IMG/VR virus record: IMGVR_UViG_3300037166_000005 | Span: 1 to 37,404 of that record | Strand: one strand, 5' to 3' | Length of the DNA stretch: 37,404 nucleotides | Source of the DNA: a virus | Program-made: the position numbers and the translations under genes | Shown here: positions 3,033 to 37,404 of the stretch, in pieces | How the letters are laid out: every line of letters starts with the position of its first letter | Numbering within the stretch: the stretch's first letter is position 1 | The notes under the pieces: generated by a model | What the model was told of the DNA's origin: nothing | What the model saw: only the letters and a program-made list of their open reading frames with translations | The model's database searches: none

Positions 3033-4490
3033 TTACACCGCCGCCACGGTGATGTTGGCTACCACGCCCTGCGCCGCTTGATAGAACAACAGTGTTAAGT
3101 CAGAAACAGCCGTAGGCTGCACTGCAGTTATGCTTACCGTGGCGCTACTGCCGTATCCACCAGTAACGGCTGCACCAGTTGCAAGCGCGTAACCAGTACC
3201 AGCGGTTGTGGCCTGTGGCTGGATGCCTGTAATACCGCCAGTGCCGTTAATACTGCTGACCGTCACAGTGCCGCTAGTTCCACCTGCCACTGCCAGTACA
3301 TCACCTACATGGTAACCAGATCCTGCGGCGTCTGGTATTACAGTGAAAAGCCCAGTGGCAGTTGTACCAAGCGTGACGCTTTTGATAGAGAATTCTGGCT
3401 GCGATAAATTAGGCGTCACGGCCAGCGCAGCGCCGTACAGTGCTGAGTAGGTGATGCCCTCACCTATAGCCAGTGAACTCAAGTAGTTCACCAATGCCGT
3501 CTGGATGGCAGTTAGCGTGGCTGAGGTGAAACCACTCAACCCATGCACATACATGCCGATGTACGGTTGCACGTAACTGGGCTGGTAATAACTGATGGTA
3601 GTTTCGTATCCAGTGACTGGGTCGGTCACGACTACAGAGGTAGTGCCGTTAGTAAAGCACCCGATGGTCTTCTTATTGTAGATGGCAGTAGCCACTGCTA
3701 ACGGCAGCCCGCCCTCCACTACCATGGTGATGGAATGCGCCGGGTTGCCCCATGGACTGTCAGTGGCGCCGGTGGGATTCTCTATGGAAGTTCCAGGACC
3801 ACCCGGCGTCGGATAACCTGGAGCCACGCGCGTGACACCACTGACCGCCAAGACTACCGCTACAGTGGCGGCAATCGGCGTCGTTGATGGAAGCGCCACT
3901 GAGACAGCCTGGCGCGCCCGCAGAGCAGAGTCTGCCTCTACGCCAGCGCCAGGCACAGCGGCTGATGCGTTACTTACTGATGTCCATCCGTTGGTGGGAG
4001 TGGCTATGATGTTGATGGTTCCAGCTTCAGCCGTGACATTACCTGGCGTTGTGCATACGACTGTGACATTCGTAGTTCCAGTTATCAATGGCGTAGACGT
4101 TGGTAGCGCCCATAGATTACCGTTCTGATCTTGTACAAAAGCATTCGTAAGTGTGATACTAGCCGCGCTAACGCACGCCACTAACGCGGTGGAGTAAGAA
4201 AACGGCGAGCGAGCCAGGCCATTCATCTTGACCACACGGTCCAGTCCGACCCCGATAGCTGTCAATGGTGACGCTTGGTTGTAGGCTAGCTGCAAACCGG
4301 CGTTTGTGTCGGCCTGCTTAAGCGATACGATGGACAGCAGTTGATAGATTGCCGAGTCAGGACCGATATACTGATTAGCGCCGTAGATATTCAAGTATGA
4401 CTGAAGATTATCGGCTAGAATAGAAGCATAAGACGCTGTAGTAAGCCCGGCGGGTCCTACTGAGGGCGGTGCATACGCGGGAGTCGACAT
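3033..4490 (-). CDS. Baseplate J-like wedge protein
   Basis: A 485-residue protein of the Baseplate_J (P2 gpJ, Mu gp47, T4 gp6) type. Visible marks are the N-terminal helix with SIVSLKQADTNAGLQLAYNQ, the region GWTSVSNASAAVPGAGVEADSALRAR with the usual DS.LR.R motif, and the GGLPLAVATAIYNKKTIG segment. It forms the baseplate wedge dimers. Residues about 390-456 hold an extra Gly-rich module (GSGYHVGDVLAV, then GTGYALATG) before the last 30 residues. A similar module is inserted in the tail sheath protein (11749-11958). Assignment is firm; the role of the insert is unknown. Confidence 0.92.
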   Translation of the reverse strand: MSTPAYAPPSVGPAGLTTASYASILADNLQSYLNIYGANQYIGPDSAIYQLLSIVSLKQADTNAGLQLAYNQASPLTAIGVGLDRVVKMNGLARSPFSYSTALVACVSAASITLTNAFVQDQNGNLWALPTSTPLITGTTNVTVVCTTPGNVTAEAGTINIIATPTNGWTSVSNASAAVPGAGVEADSALRARQAVSVALPSTTPIAATVAVVLAVSGVTRVAPGYPTPGGPGTSIENPTGATDSPWGNPAHSITMVVEGGLPLAVATAIYNKKTIGCFTNGTTSVVVTDPVTGYETTISYYQPSYVQPYIGMYVHGLSGFTSATLTAIQTALVNYLSSLAIGEGITYSALYGAALAVTPNLSQPEFSIKSVTLGTTATGLFTVIPDAAGSGYHVGDVLAVAGGTSGTVTVSSINGTGGITGIQPQATTAGTGYALATGAAVTGGYGSSATVSITAVQPTAVSDLTLLFYQAAQGVVANITVAAV

Positions 4491-4877: not shown

Positions 4878-5222
4878 TTAGATGCACCCTAACTGCGCCG
4901 CTCGCGCTGCAATGGCTGCTTCTAGTGCGACTTGCTTAGCCGTCAAGAGAGTCGCTTGACTAATGGTATTAGTATGCACAACTATCATTGGAGCAATCAT
5001 GTTGGTGATCCAAGTTATTACAGACGGAAGATCTGTCGGCACCACTATAAGAGCGGCTAAGGCTGCTATTTGGCTGTTAATGGCAGTTATCTCAGCTTCT
5101 ACTGATGGAATCATAGCTGCCTGTAACAACGCCAAAGCTACACAGGAAGGCGCCGCTTCAATGGCTGCTATTTGAGAGGTAAAAAATGCTGTGTTTACTA
5201 ATGCTGTACCTTGTGGCTGCAT
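4878..5222 (-). CDS. Helical protein of unknown function in the baseplate cluster
   Basis: A 114-residue protein rich in Ala and Ile, with heptad-like helices (AEITAINSQIAALAALI; LLTAKQVALEAAIAARAAQL). No family is recognised. It sits between the spike and the gp25-like wedge protein, with only one base to the next start, so it is very likely made together with them. A small helical structural or chaperone-like protein is plausible. No catalytic motif or clear membrane segment is seen. Confidence 0.75.
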   Translation of the reverse strand: MQPQGTALVNTAFFTSQIAAIEAAPSCVALALLQAAMIPSVEAEITAINSQIAALAALIVVPTDLPSVITWITNMIAPMIVVHTNTISQATLLTAKQVALEAAIAARAAQLGCI

Positions 5223-5230
5223 AACAGTCC

Positions 5231-5947
5231 TCAGAAGATGTTTGTTATAATGCCATCTTGAACAGTAACGATTTGACCAGTAGGTGTTGTAAAGCTGCCA
5301 GTGGCGCCGTTTCCAACTTGCAAGTTTTGTGATGCAGATGATAATGGCGAGTTGATAGTTACTGAACTCGTGGCATTAACCGTCACGCTCGGCGCCGTCA
5401 CGGTTACAGCCGGCGCCGTCACGGTCACACCAGCTTCTGCTATGTCTATGACAACAGTACCATCATCGCTGCGTAGTTGCGCTGACGTAGTGGAGTAACT
5501 CGGCAGCAACCGTTGCTGGTTCCACGGACCGGGGATGCAGAAGGCGTCTGATAAGTCGTGGCGGCGCAGTTCGAACTGCACGTTCTGCCAGCCGCCATTG
5601 GCCCACCAAGTGTCGATGCATAGGTCGGCGAATACTACTAGGCACTCGTCACCAGCTTTCAACGGCAGCGTTAGTGAGAAGCCGCCGCCGCGCGGCAGCA
5701 CCACTGGCACGTCCAGCAGCTGATGTATCGCCACGTCGACTTGGCCAGCAGGGTCCTGCATGCGTTCCATCACCGTCAATTGCACCATGACAGTCTGCTT
5801 GACTGCATCGAACTTTGTGATGAGACCAGGCATAGCCACGCGCATGTCACACGCTGCTTGATGCAGTAAGTCAGTCCACTGAGCCGCGGATGCTGCACTA
5901 CGCGCCTCTGGCGTGAGGTTAGTGGATGAGGCGGAGTTAGTCGCCAT
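5231..5947 (-). CDS. Baseplate spike protein with Gp138 N-terminal domain
   Basis: About 238 residues. Residues 25-125 match the Gp138 N-terminal domain: a helix with LLHQAACDMRVAMPGLI, then an OB-like barrel with VPVVLPRGGGFSLTLPLKAGDECLVVFAD. The C-terminal part has the beta-helix repeats APAVTVTAPSVTVNATSSV and ends in a short tip. It acts as the central membrane-piercing spike, like P2 gpV. Two starts are possible: ATG at 5953, which overlaps the upstream stop (TAATG), or ATG at 5947. I prefer 5947 because the GGAGG site lies nine bases from it but only three from the first. Confidence 0.88.
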   Translation of the reverse strand: MATNSASSTNLTPEARSAASAAQWTDLLHQAACDMRVAMPGLITKFDAVKQTVMVQLTVMERMQDPAGQVDVAIHQLLDVPVVLPRGGGFSLTLPLKAGDECLVVFADLCIDTWWANGGWQNVQFELRRHDLSDAFCIPGPWNQQRLLPSYSTTSAQLRSDDGTVVIDIAEAGVTVTAPAVTVTAPSVTVNATSSVTINSPLSSASQNLQVGNGATGSFTTPTGQIVTVQDGIITNIF

Positions 5948-10884: not shown

Positions 10885-12504
10885 TTAGAGCTGAGTGTAT
10901 ACTGCTATCGTCAAGCTGGTAACTGCACCTGCTGTAGTAATCGAGGTGTAGATCGGCATCGCCTTGCCTGCGGCGCGGTCGCCGGCTAACTGCGCCGCAT
11001 AAGGCTGTGATTGATTCAACCAGCCGTTTGGCACCGCCTGCCCAGTCGAAAGGTTCAGTACCGTCGCGCCGGTCCAGATGGCCGGTGCCAAGAAGCCGAT
11101 GTTGACGGCATTGGCGCACGATGTGTCGCATGCGTTAAGCAGTAGGTGCTGCCCGCCATTGGTCTGTGGCACTGCGGGGTTGGCTTGCAGCACATTCAAG
11201 CAGCTGATCTGAAGATTGGCCACCAGCATGGCCAGATTGATCCAGAGATACGACGGTGCGCCGTTGGACATGAAACCGGGTTCTAGTAACTGATATGGGC
11301 TGAAGTTGCAGTAGGCATTGAAGCCGGCACTTACGATGTTGTTGTATTGAGTCTGCGTCAATGGTTCTGCGGCAATACCAGCCAACTGCTTGTGCGCCGC
11401 GGTGAAGAAGCTGCCGGCTAGGCCAGTGTTCAACCCCATCTCAACGCCCATCAAAGCGGCAGCGGCATAAATGTTGTTGGGATACAGGCCGTTCTGCGTG
11501 GTAGAGTAAACGCCCAGTACGCGCATCTCCAACGTCTGCAGCTGTAAAGCGAGGTTGTTAGCGGTGCCGTTGATAATCGCCACGTCGCTGGACCATGCGT
11601 AGTAGCGCACGGTGGCCCACAGCGCGTCGGCCCACTCTGAAATAACCAGGTTGTCAGTATCGCCAGGGTTGTTCACCGCCAGCCCGTACCATGTCGAACT
11701 GGCTGCACGGCACGCCTGTGATGCCTGCAGCAGCGACTCACCTGCCGTGATATTGACCTTCAAGCCGGTGCCAGTAGAAGGCGACACGGCGACGGTGGGC
11801 AGCGCTGTGGCCGTTGTATAGCCAGTGCCCTGCGTTCCCGGAACGGTACCAACAGTCAGCACCTGCCCAGCGGCGCCAACGGTCAACACAGTCAGCGTGC
11901 CATAGCTGGCGCTGCCCTGCGTTACCGTGACAGTATCGAGTACTTTGTAACCGCTACCGACAAAACCAATGCTGGTCTGCGCTGCAGACACAGTAGTAAT
12001 ACAGGGCGAGGCAAGCACTACAACGGTGGGACTTGTGTAGGAGGCGATAGTAGTAACTAGATTCGCTCCCGCCGTGCCAGCACCAATCACAGTGACTGCA
12101 CTACCGACGTCTCCAGCCGCGAAGACAGCCGTGGCTGAGGCCAGGTAGGTGGGGTTGGTGATGGATGACATGACGCCATCGTTCACCGTGCGGCCGTCTA
12201 CTACAGCAGCACCGATGGCTGTCAGGTCTTGGCGCCCAATCCAGAGAAACTCCGGTGCCGGCGTCTGGCTGAAATACACCTGAGCGGCGATGTACTCCGG
12301 GCTGTTGGCGGTGAAACCGTCGCTCAGCAGGCCCATCACGCCGGTGTACTGCCGCAGCCGCGGGTTTGTGCCGTACGACGGAATGACGGCACTCGGCCCG
12401 ACGAACAAGCCTTGGTTGAAACTGTTTGCTGAAGCCGCGGTGGGCGACACTGTTACTGAAATGTCGATGATATTACTGAGAGAGAGGGGAGGCATTAGAG
12501 CCAT
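10885..12504 (-). CDS. Tail sheath protein (DUF3383)
   Basis: A 539-residue protein. The N-terminus (LSLSNIIDISVTVSPTAASANSFNQGLFVG) and the core (LYPNNIYAAAALMGVEMGLN, then FTAAHKQLAGIAAEPLTQTQ) are characteristic of DUF3383 contractile sheath proteins. Residues about 115-255 hold an insertion of beta-rich modules: FAAGDVGSAVTVIGAGTAG..., then GSGYKVLDTVTVTQGSASYG and GTGYTTATALP. The second is the same kind of module as in the J-like wedge protein (3123-3323). The insert likely decorates the outer tail surface. A GGAG site precedes the ATG. Confidence 0.92.
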   Translation of the reverse strand: MALMPPLSLSNIIDISVTVSPTAASANSFNQGLFVGPSAVIPSYGTNPRLRQYTGVMGLLSDGFTANSPEYIAAQVYFSQTPAPEFLWIGRQDLTAIGAAVVDGRTVNDGVMSSITNPTYLASATAVFAAGDVGSAVTVIGAGTAGANLVTTIASYTSPTVVVLASPCITTVSAAQTSIGFVGSGYKVLDTVTVTQGSASYGTLTVLTVGAAGQVLTVGTVPGTQGTGYTTATALPTVAVSPSTGTGLKVNITAGESLLQASQACRAASSTWYGLAVNNPGDTDNLVISEWADALWATVRYYAWSSDVAIINGTANNLALQLQTLEMRVLGVYSTTQNGLYPNNIYAAAALMGVEMGLNTGLAGSFFTAAHKQLAGIAAEPLTQTQYNNIVSAGFNAYCNFSPYQLLEPGFMSNGAPSYLWINLAMLVANLQISCLNVLQANPAVPQTNGGQHLLLNACDTSCANAVNIGFLAPAIWTGATVLNLSTGQAVPNGWLNQSQPYAAQLAGDRAAGKAMPIYTSITTAGAVTSLTIAVYTQL

Positions 12505-12528
12505 GATTGTGAGTCTCCTTGTTTAAGC

Positions 12529-13146
12529 TTATGCTGTTGCAGTGATGCCTGCTACTAGGTCTGACGGCGAACCGTCGTAGACCTTAATCTCTACGCTGGT
12601 TGCTGTGGTGTCGTTGATAGATTCAGTTATGGCCTCGTAGAGGTCAATGCTCAGATCTGCGCGCGCCCACCACTGAGCATTCAATTGTTCGGGCATGTAG
12701 GTGGGATCATGCGGATCTGATAGCGGGAATAAGTTTTGCAATGCTAGTAAGCCGGTGAAGTAGTCGGTAACGAAGAGCGCCGACTTGACGGCGCGCAGGT
12801 TATCGGCGGCATTAGGCCCATAGGCACACCACGCCACGCGCCAGCCGCGAGTGTAAGCCCATAACTCTGTAAGCGTGGTGTCGATGGTAGTCAGCGCCTG
12901 GTCACGCACTCGACTGTACTCATCATCGTGAACGGCACACTGCACAAAGCAGACGTCCTGCGCCGGCGATTGAGCGAATGGCTGCCCCTCGACAGGCCAG
13001 TCCACGCGCACACGGCTGAAGTCGGTAGGCGGGTTGATACCGATGGCGGCTAGCGTCCACGCTTGCATGATGATGTTCATCTGCGGCACGGTCAAAGCTG
13101 AGCTGGTAAGCGTCTGGCCTGAAGGATACGTAATGGAAGTTGTCAT
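12529..13146 (-). CDS. Tail terminator / neck protein (gp12-like, LIC_12616 family)
   Basis: A 205-residue protein whose start overlaps the upstream stop as ATGA. The segment VPQMNIIMQAWTLAAIGINP followed by VDWPVEGQPFAQSPAQDVCFVQC and the C-terminal WWARADLSIDLYEAITES fits the neck terminator proteins encoded just before the sheath in these phages. It would cap the tail and connect to the head. The gene order (head completion, terminator, sheath, tube) supports this. Confidence 0.8.
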   Translation of the reverse strand: MTTSITYPSGQTLTSSALTVPQMNIIMQAWTLAAIGINPPTDFSRVRVDWPVEGQPFAQSPAQDVCFVQCAVHDDEYSRVRDQALTTIDTTLTELWAYTRGWRVAWCAYGPNAADNLRAVKSALFVTDYFTGLLALQNLFPLSDPHDPTYMPEQLNAQWWARADLSIDLYEAITESINDTTATSVEIKVYDGSPSDLVAGITATA

Positions 13147-13688
13147 GGCGTGAGCAAACCTTTAATGCGCACGCTGCACGCGGCCCAATCCTTAGCCACG
13201 CACTGCTGCGCGTCTTGCAGGGTGATCTTGCCGGTGCACGCGAGGCCGCGCGGCCCACCCAGCGTATCTTCCACCTGGTGATCTTTGATGCGTGCTTCAG
13301 TCATCGGCTGCGGCCATAGGTTAGTGAGGCAATCAGGGCACCCGCCAATTTCCAAGCTGATGAGGTGGTCACCCTCGACTGAGCCATCGCATTTGGCTAC
13401 CCCGTAGGCGGCGCAGACTTTGCGCTTCAGCCCGGCGAAGTTCTTAATAGCGGCGCGGATAGGGCCAGTCTTGAAGTCAGGCGCGCAAATATTCAGTTCT
13501 ACGCCGTTCACCACATGCGGTGTCTTGGTGAGATCGGCAACGACGTCTGCTTTGACTGCCCCCGGTGTCGCTACAGGGTCAGGCAGTGTGTAGGTTCCAC
13601 TTTGGCTGTAATGCGCCGTGGCAGGCTGCTGAGCAGATGAAGCGGTGAGGCAAAGGGCAAAAATCGTAATCGGCAGTGTAAACTTCAT
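13143..13688 (-). CDS. Exported HNH-like nuclease-family protein
   Basis: 181 residues from ATG 13688, with GGAGG seven bases upstream. Residues 1-20 (MKFTLPITIFALCLTASSAQ) look like a signal peptide. The core has EGDHLISLEIGG (105-116) and NLWPQP (123-128), the pattern of an HNH-like family of exported bacterial proteins (EiDHLIPLELGG...NLWPQ), followed by DAQQCVAKDW. Asp107-His108 would be the metal site. Eight Cys residues remain after the signal peptide, compatible with disulfides in the periplasm. It sits inside the neck gene cluster between the head-completion and terminator genes, so it behaves like a moron. Possible roles are cell-wall or extracellular DNA processing, or exclusion of other phages; nuclease activity is inferred from the motif only. 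Confidence 0.7.
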   Translation of the reverse strand: MKFTLPITIFALCLTASSAQQPATAHYSQSGTYTLPDPVATPGAVKADVVADLTKTPHVVNGVELNICAPDFKTGPIRAAIKNFAGLKRKVCAAYGVAKCDGSVEGDHLISLEIGGCPDCLTNLWPQPMTEARIKDHQVEDTLGGPRGLACTGKITLQDAQQCVAKDWAACSVRIKGLLTP

Positions 13689-13738
13689 CCGCAAGCCTCC
13701 TCTACAGGGCCGTTCGGTGGAGCCTGGTCAGCTTCTAA

Positions 13739-13753
13739 GGCCTCCGTGAGGCC
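13739..13753 (-). other. Short GC-rich hairpin between neck genes
   Basis: GGCCTC and GAGGCC form a perfect 6-bp stem with a 3-base loop in the 84-bp gap between 13773 and the HNH-like gene. No U-tract follows on the minus strand, so a terminator is doubtful; it may affect mRNA stability. Confidence 0.3.
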
Positions 13754-13772
13754 CGGACAGGGGAAAGTACAC

Positions 13773-14138
13773 CTACGCGGCTGATTCGCGCGTGGCGAGG
13801 GCCTTCCAGTAACCGGCTCCGGGCGTGTGGTAGACCTGAAGCACACGATAAACCTCACCACCTGTAGCTGGGTACTGGATCTTGTCGCTGGCAGCGTTGA
13901 TCCGCGTGACGTAGATGGGTACGGTACTCCAGAAGCTGCGGACCTCGCTCACACGGTCAGCTTCAGGCAGCATGGCGACTTCCTTGTTGGAAGCCTGCTG
14001 TACCGGGCCGAACTGCTGGATGGTGGAAACGGTGCTCTGGAACCCGCCGGCAATCCAGGCGCCTGCACTTCTCAGAATGGTGTATTGCTGCGGGGCGCAG
14101 AGGTCGGGGTCGGAGATCACTTCTTGCATAGAAATCAT
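13773..14138 (-). CDS. Putative head-completion (head closure) protein
   Basis: A 121-residue protein whose start overlaps the preceding stop as ATGA. The pattern ISDPDLCAPQQYTILRSAGAWIAGGF, then MLPEADRVSEVRSFWSTVPIYV and EVYRVLQVYHTPGAGYWKALA, resembles small head-closure or head-tail adaptor proteins (a beta barrel with a 'LPE.DR' loop). Location between the tail-completion and terminator genes supports a neck role. The family is not named with certainty. Confidence 0.65.
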   Translation of the reverse strand: MISMQEVISDPDLCAPQQYTILRSAGAWIAGGFQSTVSTIQQFGPVQQASNKEVAMLPEADRVSEVRSFWSTVPIYVTRINAASDKIQYPATGGEVYRVLQVYHTPGAGYWKALATRESAA

Positions 14139-14641
14139 ACTGACTCACGTCTACTTACTTTGGCTGCTTCAAAGGCTTTCTCAAAAGTTTCACCTTTGCC
14201 AAGCCACTTCACCGTAGTTGAAGCCGCGTAAGGCCGCACACCAACTTTGTACGTGCCCCACTTTCCATAGGCTGCACGACCAGTGTAAGCTGACGCAGGC
14301 GCTTCGACTGTCGCTAGCGTACCCCATAAAGCCTGGGCCTTCTCATAAGCGGCGTGCCAGCTCATGCCTTGGTTAATGGCATCGCTTGCTTTTGTGTTAG
14401 CCTTTATCATAGCTAATCTATCAAGATCACGCTGAAGCATGCCGGCACGTGTAGATGGGTAACTGCCAGTGTGTACAGGCGGATTACCGCTGCTCTTATG
14501 CAGACCATTCCACTTGGTCTTTCCACAAAGCCCACATTTAGGAAACTTCTCGGTTGACGCTTCTGGCATCATGAAGGCATGCTCTTTAGCTGCATTCAAT
14601 ACGTGGTCTAGTGCTCTATGCATTCGCGCTCTTCGGTCCAC
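14135..14641 (-). CDS. Unknown protein with N-terminal RRARMHRALDHVLN motif
   Basis: A 168-residue protein starting at GTG 14641, with AGGGGG upstream. Residues 3-16 (RRARMHRALDHVLN) match a motif that recurs in other proteins of this phage. Residues 33-46 (KFPKCGLCGKTKWN) hold a CxxC knuckle, and the second half (YGKWGTYKVGVRPYAAS..EKAFEAAKVSRRE) is unassigned. It is translationally coupled with the putative head-closure gene. The motif stands at the very N-terminus here, a useful hint that it may act as a targeting tag. No function is known to me. Confidence 0.75.
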   Translation of the reverse strand: MDRRARMHRALDHVLNAAKEHAFMMPEASTEKFPKCGLCGKTKWNGLHKSSGNPPVHTGSYPSTRAGMLQRDLDRLAMIKANTKASDAINQGMSWHAAYEKAQALWGTLATVEAPASAYTGRAAYGKWGTYKVGVRPYAASTTVKWLGKGETFEKAFEAAKVSRRESV

Positions 14642-15031: not shown

Positions 15032-15589
15032 TTATTCCTCTTTGATAATCCCTATTATCGAATTTCTTAAAGCCCCAGTGTCGATCAGCGGCCGGTTGCT
15101 GCCCTTGCGTGCGATCGTGCCAGGTGTGTTTGGTGCCCAGTGATTATCCGGTAAAGTGAACCATTTTCTAGCGGCATTCTGCCCGGCCATCGCGGCGCGC
15201 TTCATCTTCTTGACGGCCAGGTCATGGTCGCCGTCCAGTGACGCCTTCACACTAGCACCTAGTTCGCGAGAGATGATCTTCTTGTTAGTCTCATTCTCGA
15301 TCGCCGGCTCAATGACAGGGCGCGCCGGGATGTACTTCAGTGGGCTACCCTTTGTGTGGATGAAGAGTAACTCTGCATTGGTGACGTCTTGCGTTGCGGC
15401 TTTCTTCAAGCGTGCCAGCTTCTTTTTGCCGCGCACCTTGCCGGCCATTTCCAGCAGCTGCTCAGCGCGGGCGGCAGTACCGGCAGCAGGAACACCGACA
15501 TACGCAGCCAGCTTGGTGATACCAGCTAGGCGCTTGAATGCCGCCGCAGCGCCGGACTTACGGGCGATGGTGATTGTTGGGGAGGTCAC
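15032..15589 (-). CDS. Tail completion / virion morphogenesis protein (gpS/gp10-like)
   Basis: 185 residues from a GTG start that overlaps the upstream stop (GTGA). The segment TNAELLFIHTKGSPLKYIPARPVIEPAIE followed at the end by GSNRPLIDTGALRNSI is the hallmark of the HK97 gp10 / phage virion morphogenesis superfamily ('IPaRPf', 'LvDTG.LrnSI'). These proteins complete the tail top or join head and tail. The Lys-rich stretch GKKKLARLKK is a family-variable insert. Confidence 0.85.
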   Translation of the reverse strand: MTSPTITIARKSGAAAAFKRLAGITKLAAYVGVPAAGTAARAEQLLEMAGKVRGKKKLARLKKAATQDVTNAELLFIHTKGSPLKYIPARPVIEPAIENETNKKIISRELGASVKASLDGDHDLAVKKMKRAAMAGQNAARKWFTLPDNHWAPNTPGTIARKGSNRPLIDTGALRNSIIGIIKEE

Positions 15590-16302
15590 TGTGTAAGATT
15601 ACGCAAAGCAAGCTCAGCACTCATCAGTTCACTCTGAATATCAGACAGAGCATGACGCGCCTTCATTTCGCGCGGACTTTGTAAACAGCCAGATTGACCC
15701 CGCAACCGCTTGCGCGCTTCAACAGCCAGCCCAACTCTACCTCTAGCTGCATCTTCCTTATTTTTAAGACTCTCTATCTTCTTGGTAAGCTGCGCCAACG
15801 TGGGTTCGGCATCTTTCGCCCTAGTACCGCAAGAATCTATTACAGCATCCAGCGCGCGATGGAGTCTGGAGCGGCGGTCTGCATCACGGGCCGAGGCCTT
15901 AGCAGTACCTTCAACAAGTGCCTTAGCCTGCACCTTCCACTTGTAGTTATCGCCTTCAGGACGCACGTAGATGTCACCGCCTGCGATGTCTGTAACAATG
16001 GCAGGCGTGTCACTGCTGAAGCGCTTGAAGTCCTGACCAGCTTGGCCGCCTTTGCCACCGTAACCAGCTTGAATGACTACGTGGTCACCTGGTTTGAAAG
16101 TAGAGTCTTTAGCCCGTGATTTTGGATCGACCCAATAGCCAGAATGAACTACGGGGCGCTTACCGCCCTTCCACTGAAGAATGCCGCGGCTGTCTAGCTC
16201 ACACTCTTGCGGCACTTCAGGTTTGGCATTGGGCCAGGCCCGCTTTTCGAAGTTATACTGTGACCGCAGGCTCTTCAGTTTATCCTCTGACCAAGTACCC
16301 AT
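15586..16302 (-). CDS. Modular protein with RAKD linkers and LHRALD motif
   Basis: A 238-residue protein of unknown function. Residues 1-62 form one module. After RAKD (63-66) comes a beta module starting STFKPGDHVVIQAGYGG and ending IVTDIAGGDIYVRPEGDNYKW; it opens like the KOW-like module of the 975-residue protein (AKDSSTFDVGDKV). ARDADRRSRLHRALDAVID (138-156) follows, and after TRAKDAE (161-166) the C-terminus is a coiled coil. AAGGAG precedes the ATG. It lies just downstream of the orphan connector 3' end (16322-16402). Predicted only as a structural or virion-internal protein. Confidence 0.75.
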   Translation of the reverse strand: MGTWSEDKLKSLRSQYNFEKRAWPNAKPEVPQECELDSRGILQWKGGKRPVVHSGYWVDPKSRAKDSTFKPGDHVVIQAGYGGKGGQAGQDFKRFSSDTPAIVTDIAGGDIYVRPEGDNYKWKVQAKALVEGTAKASARDADRRSRLHRALDAVIDSCGTRAKDAEPTLAQLTKKIESLKNKEDAARGRVGLAVEARKRLRGQSGCLQSPREMKARHALSDIQSELMSAELALRNLTQ

Positions 16303-16588: not shown

Positions 16589-17128
16589 TTAGTCATCGTC
16601 ACGATAGTGAGTTTTGTGCTGCGCCTTTAACTGCTCGTCAACGGACTTTGAGCTGCTGTGATTGTAGTTGAAACGGCAGCGTGGACACTTATAACTCCAA
16701 CTACCTGGCGCCGTAAAGTTCTTTTCGTCAAGATGAGCACCGCATGCATCACACTCACGGCCCTGCGGCTTGAAGTCCTTTGCCGCTTTGCGATCAAGAA
16801 CGCAGTCCAGTGCGCGATGGAGCCTGGAGCGGCGGTCTGCGGAGTCTTTGGCCTTTTGGTGCTCAGGTGCTTCAATACGTAGTCCACACTTCACGCAGGG
16901 CAGGTTAGCAGAACCGCGCTTTGGTGTTTGGTATGAATGTGGCTCAATCTTCCTCAAAGCTCTGATTCTGTCCTCATTCGTAACCGCGTCTTTGGCGGTA
17001 CGCAGCGCCATCAATTTATCTACCGCTACGGGCGGAAGGCCCTGGTTTATCAACCAATTACGAATACTGCCCTCAGAGTAACCACCAGCCCGCAAATCTT
17101 TAAGCATCTCTTCACGACTCTTCGCCAT
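16589..17128 (-). CDS. Modular zinc-ribbon protein with LHRALD motif
   Basis: 179 residues, with GGAGG eight bases before the ATG. Residues 1-43 form a short helical module (SREEMLKDLRAGGYSEGSI). TAKDAV (44-49) precedes a segment with CVKCGLRIE (78-86). KAKDSADRRSRLHRALDCVLD (92-112) and AAKDF (115-119) precede a zinc ribbon with CDACG (126-130) and CPRC (148-151). Three AKD linkers thus separate the modules. Together with the 56-residue gene it forms the cassette between the two 29-bp repeats. DNA binding is possible from the ribbons; function unknown. Confidence 0.75.
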   Translation of the reverse strand: MAKSREEMLKDLRAGGYSEGSIRNWLINQGLPPVAVDKLMALRTAKDAVTNEDRIRALRKIEPHSYQTPKRGSANLPCVKCGLRIEAPEHQKAKDSADRRSRLHRALDCVLDRKAAKDFKPQGRECDACGAHLDEKNFTAPGSWSYKCPRCRFNYNHSSSKSVDEQLKAQHKTHYRDDD

Positions 17129-18709: not shown

Positions 18710-19498
18710 TCACGCTTTCTTGCGCGTACCATTAGGATGCGTCTTATGCCAATAGACTTTGTGGGCCTCTGGCGTCATGGCTGCGTAGCGTGCTTTCCCG
18801 CTAATGCTTTGCTTCATACGCTCTGCCGGGTCCTTATAACGCTGTGTCTGCGCTATACTCTGATGTACGCGCTCTGCAGGGTTAGACCAACGACGACAAT
18901 TACCGGCACTTGTTTTTTCGTGCTCTGCCGGATCACTGTAGCGCCGTAATTGCATTGCACTTCGTTTTGCACATTCAGCAGGGTCTTTGCATAATAGTAT
19001 CTGGCTAGCCCGCTGTTTCTCATGCTCCGCTGGATTAGCGTAACGCCATAGTTGACCGTCCTGCATCTTCGCACGTTCAGCTGGGTCTTCAAAACGACGC
19101 TTTACACCAATACTCATCTTTTTACGCGACGCCTTAGAGTGCTTACCACGAAAACCCTCACCGCCAACAGTAAGATTGTAACTTTTATCGCCCAATAAAT
19201 CAGCGTTATATGTATGAAGTTTCTTAATGTAAGAGACTTCTTTTTCAAGTAGGTTTTTGCGTGGTCCGCGCCAGATTACTTCAAACTTAAAGCTCTTCCA
19301 ATGCTTATCAATCTTCCACGCTTTGCGCATAGCGCGATGGAGTGGACCCTTTGACACGCCAGTACAAGCATGCCAAATATGCTTCTTCCACCTATTAGTC
19401 TCCGGTTTACCAGTGGTATCACATCCTACGTAGCGTTTACCATTTACTAAATTAGTAATTAGATAAACACAACCCCAACCTTCTCGATGTTTTCTCAT
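18710..19498 (-). CDS. GIY-YIG homing endonuclease (free-standing) with 17-residue repeats
   Basis: 262 residues from ATG 19498, with AAGG five bases upstream; an ATG at 19510 is a weaker choice. The GIY-YIG nuclease domain is clear: GCVYLITNLVNGKRYVG, the Arg in NRWKKH, the Glu in NLLEKEVSYIKKL, and YNLTVGGEG. Residues about 136-239 are six tandem copies of a 17-residue unit built on a D/N-PAE-R/H-x-K core with aromatic spacing, likely the DNA-binding part. It sits between the major capsid gene and the acidic-tailed gene without interrupting either. It looks more AT-rich than its neighbours, which fits recent arrival. Confidence 0.9.
   Translation of the reverse strand: MRKHREGWGCVYLITNLVNGKRYVGCDTTGKPETNRWKKHIWHACTGVSKGPLHRAMRKAWKIDKHWKSFKFEVIWRGPRKNLLEKEVSYIKKLHTYNADLLGDKSYNLTVGGEGFRGKHSKASRKKMSIGVKRRFEDPAERAKMQDGQLWRYANPAEHEKQRASQILLCKDPAECAKRSAMQLRRYSDPAEHEKTSAGNCRRWSNPAERVHQSIAQTQRYKDPAERMKQSISGKARYAAMTPEAHKVYWHKTHPNGTRKKA
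18782..19093 (-). repeat. Six tandem 51-bp units in the endonuclease C-terminus
   Basis: Six consecutive copies encode FEDPAERAKMQ.., ANPAEHEKQRA.., KDPAECAKRSA.., SDPAEHEKTSA.., SNPAERVHQSI.. and KDPAERMKQSI.., with an exact 17-codon period. Confidence 0.9.
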
Positions 19499-19530
19499 GA
19501 TTACCTTCATGTACCATTTAAGAATTCAGG

Positions 19531-28769: not shown

Positions 28770-28982
28770 CTACGCCATTACTCCACTAGCCGTATCTGGT
28801 ACATGTTGATGCTCAAGTTCCCGCTCTTCACGCCACAGCAGCAGGTTCAGCGGATTAGATCTGACCGGAACGTAACGGCCATCATCGCCTAGAGGCGCGG
28901 CGTTTGGAGCAGTAACTTTCTGATGACAAGTTGGACAGCTGTATGTGAACGACCGACCGCATTGACACATTTTGAATAGCAT
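28770..28982 (-). CDS. Small zinc-ribbon protein
   Basis: 70 residues, start overlapping the portal stop (TGATG). The N-terminus MLFKMCQCGRSFTYSCPTCH has four Cys (6, 8, 16, 19) arranged as a zinc knuckle. The rest (GDDGRYVPVRSNPLNLLLWREE) is unassigned. It lies between the portal and the peptidase-like gene. Possibly a separated module of the same kind as the ribbons in its neighbours. Confidence 0.75.
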   Translation of the reverse strand: MLFKMCQCGRSFTYSCPTCHQKVTAPNAAPLGDDGRYVPVRSNPLNLLLWREERELEHQHVPDTASGVMA

Positions 28983-31948
28983 CAGGGTTTCACCGTTCCG
29001 GCTGGTTTACTCATGTCATGCTTTTTGAGCCACTTCTTGAAATCGTCAACTTGCATTGGTGTCACATCCATGTAGATGGAGCAAGCGCGGTCGTGGCCGG
29101 CATTGAATGCCTTGATGGCGTCATCCATAGATGAATAACCGACAAAACACTTGTGCTCGTCAAACCCACGCCGTGGCGGCAAATGCTTCTGATCGAAGAT
29201 GTAAACCCAGGTAGACGCTGGATCAGGCCCGATGCAGATGTCGAGCGAATCACCGTCCGCACCAGGAATGCCGTCAAAGTAGCCGTAGTCATACGCCATG
29301 CGCACTCGCCAGCCTTGCCCTGTGCGCCATTGGCCGCGTTTCTGCTCGATGACCACTGGAAGGCCGTGGATAGTTTTAGTTTCAACTGCGGGGCCGTCGG
29401 CGTCGCGGGCCTGGCCTGTGTCACCAACGAAACCACGACTTCTAGCGTATGCTTTACATTTAGCCGGATCAACACCGTACTGGTCTGCGTAGATATACAG
29501 GTTATCAAATGCGCGCCTATAAAGCAGTGCTACACCTTCGTCAGTACCGCGCAGTGCTTTTGGCAATGTTTCCGCTTCATTATCGCAAGCTTCCAGCCAG
29601 ATAAGCTCGGGCGTCATCTTAGTGTCTTCGGCCCTCGTACGCGCCTTCCCCTGAGCACGCTGTACATACTTTAATACTTGCTGCTGCACATGCTCTGGCT
29701 TGAACCCGCGCTCAGTAGTAACATAGGCACCCCTAACCCACACACCCATTTCATACTGTCCGTTGCCGCTCACTGTCGCTCGCAAGTCCAGGTCAGGTTT
29801 GCGCGCGCCAGGCGCCTCTGTCCCAAACCAAACAATGTAGGCATAGTTTGAATCACTTGTTATTCGGAAGCCAGCGCTACGCAGCGCCTCTACTGTTGCC
29901 AGTTTAGCCGCACTCCATGGTTTGACGTCGTTCGCCCTTCCGCGTCTATAAGCATCAGAACAAGACGGGCAGACTACCGAGCCGTTCACGTCATCGCCAT
30001 CCAAGTCAGCGGCACACCATTGGCACTTGGTGACGCCCTTGCGGAGGTCGGCATCTTGTGCGAAGCCTCTAGACCGTGCATACGCCATACATTTAGCTGG
30101 GTCAACGTGAGCCTGCTCTGCATAAAAGCTGAGGTTTCTAACTACACGTTTATGAAGTTCGATCTCGCCTTGTTCCGTACCCCGCAGTGCTTTTGGCAGT
30201 GTTAAAGCCTCATTGTCACAGGCGTCCAACCAAACAAGCTCAGCGCGAGTTGTCGCATACTTAGACCCGGCATCCTTCGCCTTTGAAGTGCCTTCCGAAC
30301 CCTCCTCCACAGACCCATTTGGTGGAGCCTGGTGACCCTGTGGCTCATCCGCCTCACCCGGCTGGCCGTTTACCTTACCGGCCTTATTCTCTTCCGTCAG
30401 GGCCTTAGCGGGCGAGGACGCAGGATTCAGCCCTCCGCCCTCAGCACCGAATAACCCTTCGCCCATTTCGCCTTCGGCTTGGACCTTGTCACTAAGCTTC
30501 TCGATGTCCTCGTCAGTGATGTTGGTGAAGATCTCGGTGCGGGTGCTGGACTGCTTCAGTTCCTTGGCGAATGTGCGCAGGCTGATGCCGCCTGCATTCA
30601 ACGCCACTACGGCGGTATCTACTACGGTCTTAGCCAGCTCAGCCTTCTCTTTGTCATCCAGCACGCGGATGGAGGGGAACAGTAGGTCAAGGTCGTCCGG
30701 CACTTCTCCCAACTCGCTCATACACAGGACCGGGTACAGCTTTTCCAAAGCTGGCCGCAATGTAACGTCGGACTCAGTGGAGATGGTCTCTTCGTAAATC
30801 TTCTCGTCACCGTCACCGGCCTGTCCGAGCCCGCTGTAAGTACGGCCCCACAACCGAGTGACCGGCATCTTGGCGGCACCGCTAATAGCCAACTGCCACA
30901 TCTGCATCATGTCCGACAAGCCGGCGAAGCTATACTGCGTTTGGCTCAGCTCACCGTCCTTCTCGAGCAGCGCGAGGCTTTGATTCGACAGCATCTCATT
31001 GAACCGCTGCATGCGCTGCTCGAACTTCTGCGCCGCTGCTTGGTTCATACTGAGACCGGACATCATGCCGGCAAGGTCTGGCGCCTTCATCCCAAGAATG
31101 TTAGCTCTGAAGGAAAGCGACAATGCGTTCGACGTCAGCGTGTCATAACCTTGAATGGTTTGAATCACTGGAGCTAGGACGCTGATGCCCCAATCCTGAT
31201 AAGCTGAGTTCTCCGGCTCCGGCATTCGCGGGCCGCTAAAACGAAGGATGCGGCTGTTGTGCACTTTGAAGCTGTCGCCGCCTTTGACCTTAACTTCGTA
31301 GAATTCTGAATGACCAAAGTCCAATGGGCGATTGAGGTCGTCGCAAACGTCGCCCGTTGGTGAGATCCCACTCCAGCGATCGAAGGTGATAAGACCTGCG
31401 TAGTCATGAATACCCACGCTGTCAAGTTCTAGGGGTTGATCCAGTTCTTTGTCTTGCTTCTTGATAGCGATCAGCGCGCCTGCGCCGCCAAACAACCGCG
31501 CCTTCTCAATAGCCTCGCGAACCTTACTGCGCGTGTTGGTGCGGCGAACGGCGCGATCGATACGCGTAAGATCTTCAGGATCAATGTCGCTAGTGATCTT
31601 CGGCCAAGTCTTGACGATATCCTCAGCGGGCGCGCAGACGATGCGGCGGGCGATCCAGGACGACTCGAAGAAGGAGATGATAGCCCAAAAATTAAGCGAG
31701 AACCGCATTAGCGGGTATTCAGCATAGTTCTCAAGGCTGGAAGTGCCATAACCCGTGCGTGCCGCTGGGTTGCTGAAGACGTCGATGGCATGGGCCAAGT
31801 TGGAGGTAGTGGGTCCTATCAAACCAAGATGATCTTCTTGCTTAGTGATCTTACTGCGCTTTGAATACTGTGCGCCAACGGGCGCTGTGCGGGCGTCGAA
31901 CAATGTGTCAAGAGCGGAGCGGGCCGCTTTGTTTTTGCTAGATGGCAT
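28982..31948 (-). CDS. Portal protein (DUF1073) with a long modular C-terminal extension
   Basis: 988 residues. Residues 1-500 are a DUF1073 portal: SFFESSWIARRIVCAPAEDIVKTWP, AIEKARLFGGAGALI, LSFRANILGMKAPDL and MPVTRLWGRTYSGLGQAGDGD. The extension carries AKDAG (about 555), a helical module ELVWLDACDNEALTLPKALRGT ending AYARSRGF, a zinc ribbon (CQWC, CPSC), a beta module, a second copy ELIWLEACDNEAETLPKALRGT ending AYARSRGF, and then a domain of about 125 residues. That last domain (WRVRMAYDYGYFDGIPGADGDSLD, CIGPDP, VYIFDQKHLPPRRGFDEHKC) matches the phage 'InPase' pyrophosphatase-like domain. Portals of this family usually have 450-600 residues. The extension would face the capsid interior or the neck; its function is unknown. 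Confidence 0.88.
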   Translation of the reverse strand: MPSSKNKAARSALDTLFDARTAPVGAQYSKRSKITKQEDHLGLIGPTTSNLAHAIDVFSNPAARTGYGTSSLENYAEYPLMRFSLNFWAIISFFESSWIARRIVCAPAEDIVKTWPKITSDIDPEDLTRIDRAVRRTNTRSKVREAIEKARLFGGAGALIAIKKQDKELDQPLELDSVGIHDYAGLITFDRWSGISPTGDVCDDLNRPLDFGHSEFYEVKVKGGDSFKVHNSRILRFSGPRMPEPENSAYQDWGISVLAPVIQTIQGYDTLTSNALSLSFRANILGMKAPDLAGMMSGLSMNQAAAQKFEQRMQRFNEMLSNQSLALLEKDGELSQTQYSFAGLSDMMQMWQLAISGAAKMPVTRLWGRTYSGLGQAGDGDEKIYEETISTESDVTLRPALEKLYPVLCMSELGEVPDDLDLLFPSIRVLDDKEKAELAKTVVDTAVVALNAGGISLRTFAKELKQSSTRTEIFTNITDEDIEKLSDKVQAEGEMGEGLFGAEGGGLNPASSPAKALTEENKAGKVNGQPGEADEPQGHQAPPNGSVEEGSEGTSKAKDAGSKYATTRAELVWLDACDNEALTLPKALRGTEQGEIELHKRVVRNLSFYAEQAHVDPAKCMAYARSRGFAQDADLRKGVTKCQWCAADLDGDDVNGSVVCPSCSDAYRRGRANDVKPWSAAKLATVEALRSAGFRITSDSNYAYIVWFGTEAPGARKPDLDLRATVSGNGQYEMGVWVRGAYVTTERGFKPEHVQQQVLKYVQRAQGKARTRAEDTKMTPELIWLEACDNEAETLPKALRGTDEGVALLYRRAFDNLYIYADQYGVDPAKCKAYARSRGFVGDTGQARDADGPAVETKTIHGLPVVIEQKRGQWRTGQGWRVRMAYDYGYFDGIPGADGDSLDICIGPDPASTWVYIFDQKHLPPRRGFDEHKCFVGYSSMDDAIKAFNAGHDRACSIYMDVTPMQVDDFKKWLKKHDMSKPAGTVKP
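29437..30248 (-). repeat. Two copies of a 59-residue module in the portal extension
   Basis: Copies at 29437-29613 and 30069-30248 share W-L-x-ACDNEA-x-TLPKALRGT and YGVDPAKC or AHVDPAKC followed by AYARSRGF. They are clearly related at the DNA level in parts. A zinc ribbon and a beta module lie between them. Confidence 0.9.
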
Positions 31949-32603: not shown

Positions 32604-32897
32604 CTACTTATCAGGCGCTTCCAACTCAGTTTTCGCGGCGTACGCATCAAGCCGCGCGTTCATCACGTCGTCAAGCGTAAAGCCCTTTTCAATTTCGCAC
32701 TTACTAAGTGTCGGCTCTGTTCCAGTGAAACTCAACTTTGTACAAACGGCAACCTGTTCACCCGTCGGTTTGTACAAAGTAAGACTAGTGGGCATGCTGA
32801 GCGGCGCCGTAACACCCGACTGAACGAGCCGGGGCGCGGCTGATGTAGGAGGAGCATGAACTGACACGCTCAGTACAAGCGCAAGCAGAAAGTACAT
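32604..32897 (-). CDS. Small exported protein
   Basis: 97 residues with GGAGG seven bases before the ATG. Residues 1-20 (MYFLLALVLSVSVHAPPTSA) are a probable signal peptide ending SA-AP. The mature part has two Cys and a Val/Thr-rich segment (SMPTSLTLYKPTGEQVAVC) followed by a charged helical end. Function unknown; the SD lies inside the end of the upstream gene, so it is probably coupled. Confidence 0.75.
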   Translation of the reverse strand: MYFLLALVLSVSVHAPPTSAAPRLVQSGVTAPLSMPTSLTLYKPTGEQVAVCTKLSFTGTEPTLSKCEIEKGFTLDDVMNARLDAYAAKTELEAPDK

Positions 32898-32899
32898 AC

Positions 32900-33172
32900 T
32901 CAGACCTCCGTGCCCAGATTCACTTCATCAGAGGTAAGCCAGATGACTTCATCTTCACTATAGCACCGCGGTTTGATATCGCCGCCCTGCTTGACGAAGG
33001 CCCAGAGCACGCGCTTGCTAGGCGAAACGATCTCACGCAAGATGGCAGCATCAAGTTCCATACCGTTGATGACAAGGATGTCGTTTTTACTAACAATGAG
33101 GCGCCATCGTGCGGGCGCGACCGTGCCGCTAGGCCGTGTTACGCCCGCCGTGTGGGTCAAGCGCTTAATCAT
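32900..33172 (-). CDS. Small protein of unknown function
   Basis: 90 residues from ATG 33172, which overlaps the upstream stop (ATGA). Sequence begins MIKRLTHTAGVTRPSGTVAP and contains RWRLIVSKNDILVINGMELD and EDEVIWLTSDEV. A small beta-rich fold is likely. No family is recognised, no signal peptide. It lies between two exported proteins. Confidence 0.7.
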   Translation of the reverse strand: MIKRLTHTAGVTRPSGTVAPARWRLIVSKNDILVINGMELDAAILREIVSPSKRVLWAFVKQGGDIKPRCYSEDEVIWLTSDEVNLGTEV

Positions 33173-33978
33173 TGCTGGACGTAAGTTAGGACGCCGATCT
33201 GCGTACCAGCGCCGCCGTTGACAAGGCAAAGCCCTGAGCCAGCCGGCGCAGTAAATGTAGTTCCGCCCCACCCCATCGTAAGCCACATGCCCGCAGTAGG
33301 CACGATAGTGCCTGTCAAAGCGGTTGGCGACGTGCAGGTAGTGCTGCCGCCCGATTCAAACGCCGCGGTAGCAGTAGTGGCGGAGATGCCCATGGCGACA
33401 TTGCAAACGTAGATAGCCTTGCCAGCTGACACTGCAACAAGCTGCGTTGTACCGGCGCCGCTCGTACTGATAACGACAGACGACTTCACCACATTAGGGT
33501 TCACGCATGGATCACCGCCGATTGTGTGCGTAACGACGATGAGCGCTGGACTGAATGTTACATTGATAGTACCAGCGGTTGGGTATGTAGTACAGGCGTA
33601 CGTTGCTACATACTGATCACCCTCAGCAACAGTTGGCGTAATGCTGAATTGCTGAATACCTGTCGATGGCGTAAAAGCCGTGCTAACTGCCAATATAGTG
33701 CTAGAATTGACCACGTTGTTCTGCACATAATAAAGATTCAAAGTGCAGGCATTCGGCGATCCGGTAATGCCAGTCTCAGTGATATTCAAAGTACCGATAC
33801 CGCTGAACGTTGTCAACCTGATAGCCGAACTAGTGACCGTGGCTGTAGCGGGCGCGCCTGTGATCAACGTAATGCCGCCATATCCGACATTAGTGATGGA
33901 AGGTGTTTGAGTGGAAGCGGGCAGCGCCGTGAAGAGGCCGAGGACAGCTGCCAAGAGAGCTACGAAATACTTCTTCAT
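33169..33978 (-). CDS. Exported beta-rich protein
   Basis: 269 residues from ATG 33978, with AGGAG nine bases upstream. MKKYFVALLAAVLGLFTALPAS is a clear signal peptide. The mature chain is Thr/Ser/Val-rich and beta, with eight Cys. The C-terminal 110 residues (STSGAGTTQLVAVSAGKAIYVCNVAMG..CTSPTALTGTI..GSGLCLVNGGAGTQIGVLTYVQ) match a domain I know from proteins beside phage structural genes, of unknown role. It may coat or modify the cell surface, or attach to virions after lysis. Confidence 0.75.
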   Translation of the reverse strand: MKKYFVALLAAVLGLFTALPASTQTPSITNVGYGGITLITGAPATATVTSSAIRLTTFSGIGTLNITETGITGSPNACTLNLYYVQNNVVNSSTILAVSTAFTPSTGIQQFSITPTVAEGDQYVATYACTTYPTAGTINVTFSPALIVVTHTIGGDPCVNPNVVKSSVVISTSGAGTTQLVAVSAGKAIYVCNVAMGISATTATAAFESGGSTTCTSPTALTGTIVPTAGMWLTMGWGGTTFTAPAGSGLCLVNGGAGTQIGVLTYVQQ

Positions 33979-34016
33979 GTGCTGCGTCTCCTGTGGTTCT
34001 TGGTGCGTTGAAGTTG

Positions 34017-34865
34017 TCAAGCCGCGCTCTGTAAATTGAATGCGGTGATGAATTGTTGCTTATTCATTTGCTGCAGAGTACCATGGCGATACACTTTGCG
34101 AGGCCAGGTTACGTCGTCGATTGAAAGCAGCGGAGCGATGGTACAACGGCAGTTGAAGATGCCGCCTGGGCCGTAGTGGCCATGCGACGGTTCACCATGC
34201 AGAACCTCGGGGTCAGGCAAGTCATCAAGTGCGAAGATTATCTTGTCCATCGCTTTGTGGCTAGGGCGAACCCGTGCATCCTCACTTGTCATCCACTCTG
34301 CAAAGTTGATGCCGATGTCAGCGCACCTCGCCTGCGTTAAGGCAAGCGACGCCTTTGAAGTCTCCGTCCGCGAGATAAGCTGCACTCGTGAACGAAGCAA
34401 TTCCGGGAACCGCGCCCGCATCATTTTCGTCACTGTGCCAGGCCGCGCGCCGTTCTGCTGTGCTTTGCTTACCTCATCGACTAGGGTCTGCGCGGCTTCG
34501 AGCGGAAGCGAACTGATATAAGCGGCATTCTCACGGATGATAGCAGCGATGCGCGCGCCGGTAGCAGTGCCTGTGAGTTCCTTTTGAAGCAGGGTATAGA
34601 GTTTGCGGGCGTTCGTAGACTTCGCCGCGGCAGCGCGCCAGGTTTTCATGTTCGAAACATGGCACCAACTGACCATGCGCTGCGCAAGGGTAGCTGATGC
34701 ATCCTGGATATCTTGGGCCTTGCTACGAGCGGCGAGTTCTTCAAGCCATTGCTGAAGAGTTTGGTCTTTACGCTGCGGGGTGAGGACGCGCCCTGTTATT
34801 TGGCGAATGCCGGCGGCATATTCCCTTTGGATGCGCTGGGGGAGGGTGAACTTAGGTGGAGGCAT
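34017..34865 (-). CDS. Minor head protein, Mu gpF-like head morphogenesis
   Basis: 282 residues. The C-terminal half has RVQLISRTETSKASLALTQAR, MTSEDARVRPSHKAMD and PGGIFNCRCTIAPL, the hallmark of the Mu gpF / SPP1 gp7 minor head family. The N-terminal half is helical. It assists portal and capsid assembly and can be ejected with DNA. It is usually encoded beside the portal gene; here four small genes intervene. GGAGG lies upstream of the ATG. Confidence 0.9.
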   Translation of the reverse strand: MPPPKFTLPQRIQREYAAGIRQITGRVLTPQRKDQTLQQWLEELAARSKAQDIQDASATLAQRMVSWCHVSNMKTWRAAAAKSTNARKLYTLLQKELTGTATGARIAAIIRENAAYISSLPLEAAQTLVDEVSKAQQNGARPGTVTKMMRARFPELLRSRVQLISRTETSKASLALTQARCADIGINFAEWMTSEDARVRPSHKAMDKIIFALDDLPDPEVLHGEPSHGHYGPGGIFNCRCTIAPLLSIDDVTWPRKVYRHGTLQQMNKQQFITAFNLQSAA

Positions 34866-36546: not shown

Positions 36547-37266
36547 CTACGCATGAAGTACATGGCCCATGCGTTTATGCTGCGCACTGGCTTTAGCGCT
36601 AAGCACTGTGAGCGTTTTATCAGAGAAGTAACGCCCGCTAGCTGCACGACGTTTGCCAGCCTCTGATTGTTTGCGCCGTGTTACCACACCAGCTAGACTA
36701 GCATAGTGGCGCATCGATGCTTCACGCGTCTTTACGTGCTCGGCTTCACTCGCGTAACGAATACGAAGTCCGGTTGAATGATTAGCGCATTCACGCTTGC
36801 TAAGCTTACGGCCGGACAACTTCGCTGCTATACGAGCTTTGCACGCTGCACCTTCAGGCGTAGCATAGTACGCAATTTTCTTAGCGGCAACTTTGCCCTT
36901 ATTAGCCGCACCAATCTTCGCGCCGATGGCTTTGCGTTCTTTGTAACTACGATGCCCATAACCGCCGCCATCGCCACCGAGTGTAAGGTTGTAGCCATGC
37001 GGCGTAATTGTATTTAGCTGCTTAATAAAGCACCGCTCAGCTTCGCGCAATAAAGGCTCAGTACATTGATGCAGTGTTTCTATGACAAAATTTGCCGCGC
37101 CCCATTTGCGTAATGCGCGATGAAAGTAAACGTCACTACCATGCGCAGCATCATAGAGATGTCGCGCAAATCGCTTTTCGACAGCGACGATTGTCCACCC
37201 AACGTAGCGCTTACCATTCAGTTTGTTAGTTACGCTGTAAACATTACCGACACGATAACTTTTCAT
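36547..37266 (-). CDS. GIY-YIG homing endonuclease with NUMOD-like repeats
   Basis: 239 residues from ATG 37266, which overlaps the terminase stop (ATGA) and has GGAGG eight bases upstream. The nuclease domain shows NVYSVTNKLNGKRYVGWT, the Arg in KRFARHLYDA, the Glu in PLLREAERCFIKQL and GYNLTLGGDGGG. Lys/Ala-rich DNA-binding repeats follow (GAKIGAANKGKVAAKK, RKLSKRECANHSTGLR). It sits between two copies of the terminase C-terminus. Homing into terminase genes is known in phages; the target here would be terL. Confidence 0.9.
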   Translation of the reverse strand: MKSYRVGNVYSVTNKLNGKRYVGWTIVAVEKRFARHLYDAAHGSDVYFHRALRKWGAANFVIETLHQCTEPLLREAERCFIKQLNTITPHGYNLTLGGDGGGYGHRSYKERKAIGAKIGAANKGKVAAKKIAYYATPEGAACKARIAAKLSGRKLSKRECANHSTGLRIRYASEAEHVKTREASMRHYASLAGVVTRRKQSEAGKRRAASGRYFSDKTLTVLSAKASAQHKRMGHVLHA

Positions 37267-37404
37267 GCCGACAGCCTCCACTCCTGCGCAAACACATCAT
37301 TGACAATGTAACGTCCGGCGTCGGGACAGTGATCACGCTTCTTGACAACTTGCTCAGTGCCATTCTCACTTTTCTTCTTATCCCATGCGTAGCTTTGAAA
37401 CTCA
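37263..37404 (-). CDS. terL: Terminase large subunit, C-terminal end (partial)
   Basis: The frame is open from the right edge to TGA at 37263-37265. It reads EFQSYAWDKKKSENGTEQ, then KKRDHCPDAGRYIVNDVFAQ, the typical end of a phage terminase nuclease domain in which Asp-His-x-x-Asp-Ala-x-Arg-Tyr is conserved. The protein packages DNA into the prohead with ATP. The stop overlaps the endonuclease start. Confidence 0.8.
   Translation of the reverse strand, partial: EFQSYAWDKKKSENGTEQVVKKRDHCPDAGRYIVNDVFAQEWRLSA

Follow-up and report, generated by a model that had tools for sequence, protein, structure and literature searches.

Putative HNH-type nuclease with a predicted export signal, encoded by a cargo gene among the neck genes of a phage

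Both HNH nucleases and exported DNases carried by phages have been described before (PMC5304195, PMC3482391). The portion of PMC5304195 which supplied the description of phage GVE2 HNHE used for comparison also reports that HNH genes adjoin terminase genes. Extracellular DNases of streptococcal prophages are reported to be likewise exported nucleases carried as phage cargo, in other hosts, and are likened to the present protein by kind. The DNA/RNA non-specific endonucleases (PF13930 Endonuclea_NS_2, NucA and streptococcal Sda1) are also exported enzymes, of the beta-beta-alpha-metal type. Here we present a computational analysis of a gene from a virus record of 37,404 bases, the whole of which was analysed and is called the window, whose product shares features with these groups and belongs to an exported family without a name.

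The gene encodes 181 aa (13143..13688, minus strand), starting with ATG at 13688 and ending with TGA at 13145-13143. Seven bases before the ATG lies a ribosome-binding site, GAGGAGG (13696..13702, minus strand), and the stop codon overlaps the start of the next gene within ATGA (13143..13146, minus strand). Between the window and locus L007 the dN/dS of the gene is 0.065 over 181 codons, which indicates purifying selection; two neighbour genes give 0.051 and 0.114, and a third has zero synonymous changes. Because the open reading frame is conserved in other phages and is under purifying selection, it is not a chance one.

The upstream neighbour (13773..14138, minus strand) matches the phrog_939 head protein (E 4e-11), and a Neck1-type protein (E 5e-23) is encoded four genes upstream. 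The downstream neighbour (12529..13146, minus strand) matches phrog_1973, of unknown function (E 1.8e-18), and is followed by the tail sheath gene (E 8e-65). A previous sequence-only reading had placed the gene between two neck genes, which is a reasonable if inexact description. In all seven loci L019-L025, which include two nearly identical pairs (L020/L021 and L022/L023), the phrog_1973 gene comes directly after the head gene and the HNH-type gene is missing; the whole record of L024 likewise has none. Since these seven relatives keep the same flanking genes and lack it, the window copy is inserted cargo in the neck genes; the remark in the same reading that such a protein is unexpected there agrees with this absence.

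Several other readings of the locus were considered and rejected. A moron carrying a promoter and a terminator of its own is not indicated, as the sites do not exceed those of shuffled sequences (promoter-like 1 against a shuffle mean of 0.9, terminator-like 1 against 1.6) and the GC content resembles that of the surroundings. Direct repeats expected of a transposon-like insertion are absent in 13000-14000, and Rfam gave no match to an RNA element in 12400-14300.

Elsewhere in the window we noticed a DRR[SA]R[LM]HRALD module common to otherwise different proteins (14135-14641, 15586-16302 and 16589-17128), present also in L007 at 3498-4052. For 18710-19510 there are matches to families of homing endonucleases (phrog_314 at E 1e-20), and the protein of 36547-37281 resembles it by eye only. 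Signal-like hydrophobic N-terminal segments without a PHROG match occur in 32604-32897 and 33169-34020, and the C-terminal part (858-984) of the portal protein (28982-31948) matches minor-head and DarB-like families.

Export of the protein is predicted from hydropathy and a cleavage site. Its first 19 residues (13632..13688, minus strand) form a predicted Sec signal peptide, with a hydrophobic stretch of 12 residues from residue 3 (mean Kyte-Doolittle 2.27) followed by SSA-QQ, which by the cleavage rule we take to be a signal-peptidase-I-like site. Ten of the 13 family proteins from viral contigs, this one included, reach a hydropathy of 2.0 and the remaining three lie at 1.88-1.96, as compared with 4/39 other open reading frames of the window that reach 2.0 with a stretch beginning in the first 25 residues. 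The signal peptide and the eight further cysteines noted from the letters are thus both borne out: C13 lies within the signal, and C68, C92, C100, C117, C120, C151, C163 and C171 lie in the mature region. Six of these (C92, C100, C117, C120, C163 and C171) are almost confined to the phage clade. In eight relatives (L008, L010, L011, L012, L014, L015, L016 and L035) the N-terminal hydrophobic segment is followed by a Cys with Ser or Gly in front of it, which may point to anchoring as a lipoprotein and not to a signal that is cleaved off. In L008 a small coiled lipoprotein gene (5207-5593) precedes the HNH-type gene, and its product faintly resembles N-terminal extensions fused to the HNH-type protein in L014 and L012. 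A lipoprotein-HNH fusion in L010/L012/L014 is a lead, set aside here since cross-locus matches, at best about E 0.003, are too weak.

The motif of the protein reads DH (107-108), GG (115-116) and N123-LWPQP, so that His108 and DHLISLEIGG...NLWPQP are present as claimed. Conservation was judged in an alignment of 95 rows, comprising the window, 14 viral loci and 80 genome loci, the last being the best 80 of at least 590 relatives. Thirteen residues are invariant in 95/95 rows: G43, C68, R78, E105, D107, G115, G116, N123, K135, D136, E140, C151 and W168. H108 is present in 80/80 genome rows, which says little because the scan pattern demanded DHL and GG. Among the viral rows DH is kept in 13/15 and replaced by DD in L037 and L038, and in the 24 loci retrieved independently of the pattern (L128-L151) DH occurs in 14/24, several of them duplicates of earlier loci, and Tyr or Phe takes the place of His in 10/24. 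By hhalign, D107 and H108 (13365..13370, minus strand) align with the DH of PF01844 proteins and are the proposed metal ligand and general base; N123 (13320..13322, minus strand) aligns with the Asn of the HNH motif. The third canonical residue, a His or Asn on the helix, is off its usual spacing, and candidates for the metal site are found in K135-D136-H137...E140 (13269..13286, minus strand), among which D136, H137 and E140 are candidates for this third residue.

The AlphaFold2 model built from the 95 rows (pLDDT 94, pTM 0.84) contains a beta-beta-alpha core at residues 104-143 (13260..13379, minus strand), with strands 104-108 and 124-128 and a helix 129-143 across the motif. H108 ends the first strand and N123 lies at the start of the second, i.e. 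the His-Me-finger order is present in the model. Foldseek against the PDB gave nothing at E < 0.001 for the protein, its lists containing also unrelated proteins such as maltose-binding protein, and phmmer found no solved PDB relative. In a second structural alignment against 45 PDB chains, 13 entries reached a Z of at least 2 and every one is an HNH nuclease (Rhs2-CT, Cas8-HNH, Cas9 HNH and McrA types), the best at Z 4.2 with rmsd 4.1 over 98 aligned residues. For the cellular relative L060 (pLDDT 95.9), compared with 155 chains, 23 of the 24 entries shown are beta-beta-alpha-metal nucleases, by title or as known enzymes of that type; the remaining one is a maltose-binding-protein fusion. As the single matches are weak, it is the enrichment for HNH nucleases that makes the argument. 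Three matches under 0.001 were obtained among viral structure models, two of them named HNHc. In hhalign against 13 PF01844 proteins, DH...GG...N is aligned with their HNH motif at a probability of 87.5% both for the full alignment and for its genome rows, and at 40% when the phage rows are used by themselves; 30 column-shuffled controls peaked at 2.3% with the full alignment and at 4% with the phage rows. These comparisons support a beta-beta-alpha core of HNH type; the sequence-only reading had named a fold lacking the beta-beta-alpha metal core as what would speak against it, and the predicted fold has that core.

The protein thus shares with described HNH nucleases (PF01844 and others, GVE2 HNHE, Gme HNH, Cas8-HNH, Rhs2-CT) the beta-beta-alpha order in the model, the His ending strand 1, the Asn starting strand 2 and the aligned DH...GG...N. 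It differs from them in its predicted export, its extra cysteines, the lack of a third His/Asn at the usual spacing and the lack of a match above the Pfam cut-off. Towards PF13930 there is a weak profile match in 3/11 members (best E 0.01, 16.5 against a cut-off of 27 bits), and among the structures matched to L060, Sda1 and NucA score Z 2.6-3.7. PF13930 was rejected as the parent family, the matches being below cut-off and the window protein without a hit; the HNH-type domain is smaller, and PF13930 members were found in 1/13 genomes.

The closest relationship is with an unnamed exported family of bacteria and archaea (Streptomyces, Crenobacter and Nitrososphaera loci), with which homology extends over the whole length and includes the 13 invariant residues; the phage clade differs in having the six additional cysteines, a helix that reads KDH..ED and an insertion ahead of C68. 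The window protein has zero matches in Pfam and NCBIfam at E 10, and its best PHROG stands at E 0.055; 0/44 family members match NCBIfam at E 0.1, and PADLOC placed the protein and three relatives in none of its families at E up to 1. Neither the exported family nor its phage clade is modelled in Pfam, NCBIfam or PADLOC, and the match in PHROGs is weak; among the titles and abstract openings surveyed no description of the family was found. A search of 50,697 phage records gave no match to the protein at E 0.01; 24 records appeared at E 10 with short stretches, mostly in T4-type internal head proteins, and were taken as chance. In viral contigs, tblastn confirmed 15/20 pattern stretches and, with a profile, 22/36, many from the same contigs as the pattern set; L002-L007 stem from the window phage itself or from one very close to it. 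Relatives occur in 53 plasmid records, most commonly of Streptomyces (18), then Sphingobium and Agrobacterium, and those listed are called 'hypothetical protein' where annotated, with whole-length homology at about 29-38% identity. A first scan of genome contigs with the phage profile gave relatives in 0/29 stretches; a second gave at least 590 relatives among at least 599 stretches, in bacteria and archaea. Distribution is patchy: at E 1e-10 members occur in 11/297 genomes of one phylum and 3/385 of one class, counts centred on genomes already known to contain members. In a tree of 102 rows the window clade holds 14/15 viral rows and two rows of the L048 genome with support 100/95, whereas L039 is placed elsewhere on a long branch. 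L048, which was listed among the genome rows, is itself phage-like, lying directly before a large terminase gene.

The strongest rival to a nuclease is a non-catalytic domain, by which the exported protein would bind something in the envelope or virion, its cutting ability lost. In ten Acidobacteriota proteins (L138-L147) a hydrophobic segment precedes the domain, whose His is replaced by Tyr in nine and by Phe in one while its other parts are kept. They begin zinc-finger-like, two of three tested being above the zf-HC2 cut-off and one below, and look like anti-sigma factors with the domain as their outer part. The Tyr or Phe in these ten proteins suggests that the domain can lose its catalytic His and yet be retained. 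Judging from such DY and DF members, and from DD in L037 and L038, a non-catalytic role must be taken seriously, although we hold it to be unlikely for the window protein: DH is found in it and in 12/14 other phage rows, and D107, N123, D136 and E140 never vary.

Gene context in the relatives bears on the time of action. Among 16 relative loci, of which L012 nearly duplicates L013 and L048 shares its genome with L128, an endolysin gene lies upstream in 9/16, upstream sequence in L009, L038, L048 and L128 being too short to judge, and a large terminase gene lies downstream on the same strand in 13/16. PHROGs agreed for the endolysin in 6/6 tested and for the large terminase in 6/6 tested. Neither gene is present at L007, which has the neck site of the window, or at L030 and L037, and no neighbour gene is conserved across all contexts. 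In most phage relatives, then, the HNH-type gene sits in the lysis-to-terminase stretch.

On balance we consider it somewhat more likely than not that the window gene is phage cargo encoding a late-made exported His-Me-finger (HNH-type) nuclease which acts outside the cytoplasm. The computation supports conservation, selection, the predicted core, the insertion and the late context of relatives, and export and the beta-beta-alpha core are both well-supported predictions. Against the nuclease reading stand the absence of Pfam, NCBIfam and PDB sequence matches, the weakness of each single fold match, the 40% of the phage rows in hhalign, the unusual spacing of the third HNH residue, and the replacement of H108 in two phage rows and ten Acidobacteriota proteins. 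The protein would pass through the inner membrane by the Sec route and fold in an oxidising compartment, where its extra cysteines may help by forming disulfides. Because most phage relatives occupy the lysis-to-terminase stretch, we propose that it would most likely accumulate in the periplasm late in infection. Nucleic acid would be cut outside the cytoplasm, with H108 as the putative base and the metal held by D107 and helix residues; the target could be DNA in the envelope or released at lysis.

Superinfection exclusion, by which the exported nuclease would degrade DNA of other phages crossing the periplasm, was the activity suggested in the sequence-only reading. Export is predicted, and in several relatives a Cys behind the hydrophobic segment gives the look of a membrane-anchored protein. 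We nevertheless find this role improbable, given that the lysis-to-terminase stretch of most relatives would be late for exclusion, that PADLOC yields no match at E up to 1 and that no neighbour is common to all contexts. Nothing speaks directly for an action on competing phages, and two phage relatives lack the proposed catalytic His.

A packaging HNH, helping terminase like the HNH genes beside terminase genes, would fit the large terminase downstream in 13/16 relative loci, but is a poor candidate, since the N-terminal export signals predict a protein that is not cytoplasmic and the window copy lies among neck genes, not beside TerL. That the gene is a homing endonuclease inserted between genes is hardly credible: its insertion, as judged from seven relatives, and a GIY-YIG homing endonuclease elsewhere in the window would fit, but an export signal is predicted, flanking direct repeats are lacking, and the family is widespread in cellular genomes, its members viewed often starting signal-like by eye.

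Beyond the single gene, we offer as a tentative and doubtful extension of the exported-nuclease reading that such proteins may form a new class of lysis-stage envelope nucleases, recruited from the large unnamed exported family, spread among phages of several gene orders and hardened by disulfides, with the His-replaced domain found in anti-sigma-like proteins. If the late exported nuclease is real, it would give the late stage of phage infection an exported enzyme of this kind, and it would point to a widespread exported family without a Pfam, NCBIfam or PADLOC model and with a weak PHROGs match. Candidate reasons for a phage to export a nuclease before lysis may be clearance of debris DNA, action on the DNA of competitors or the release of nucleotides.
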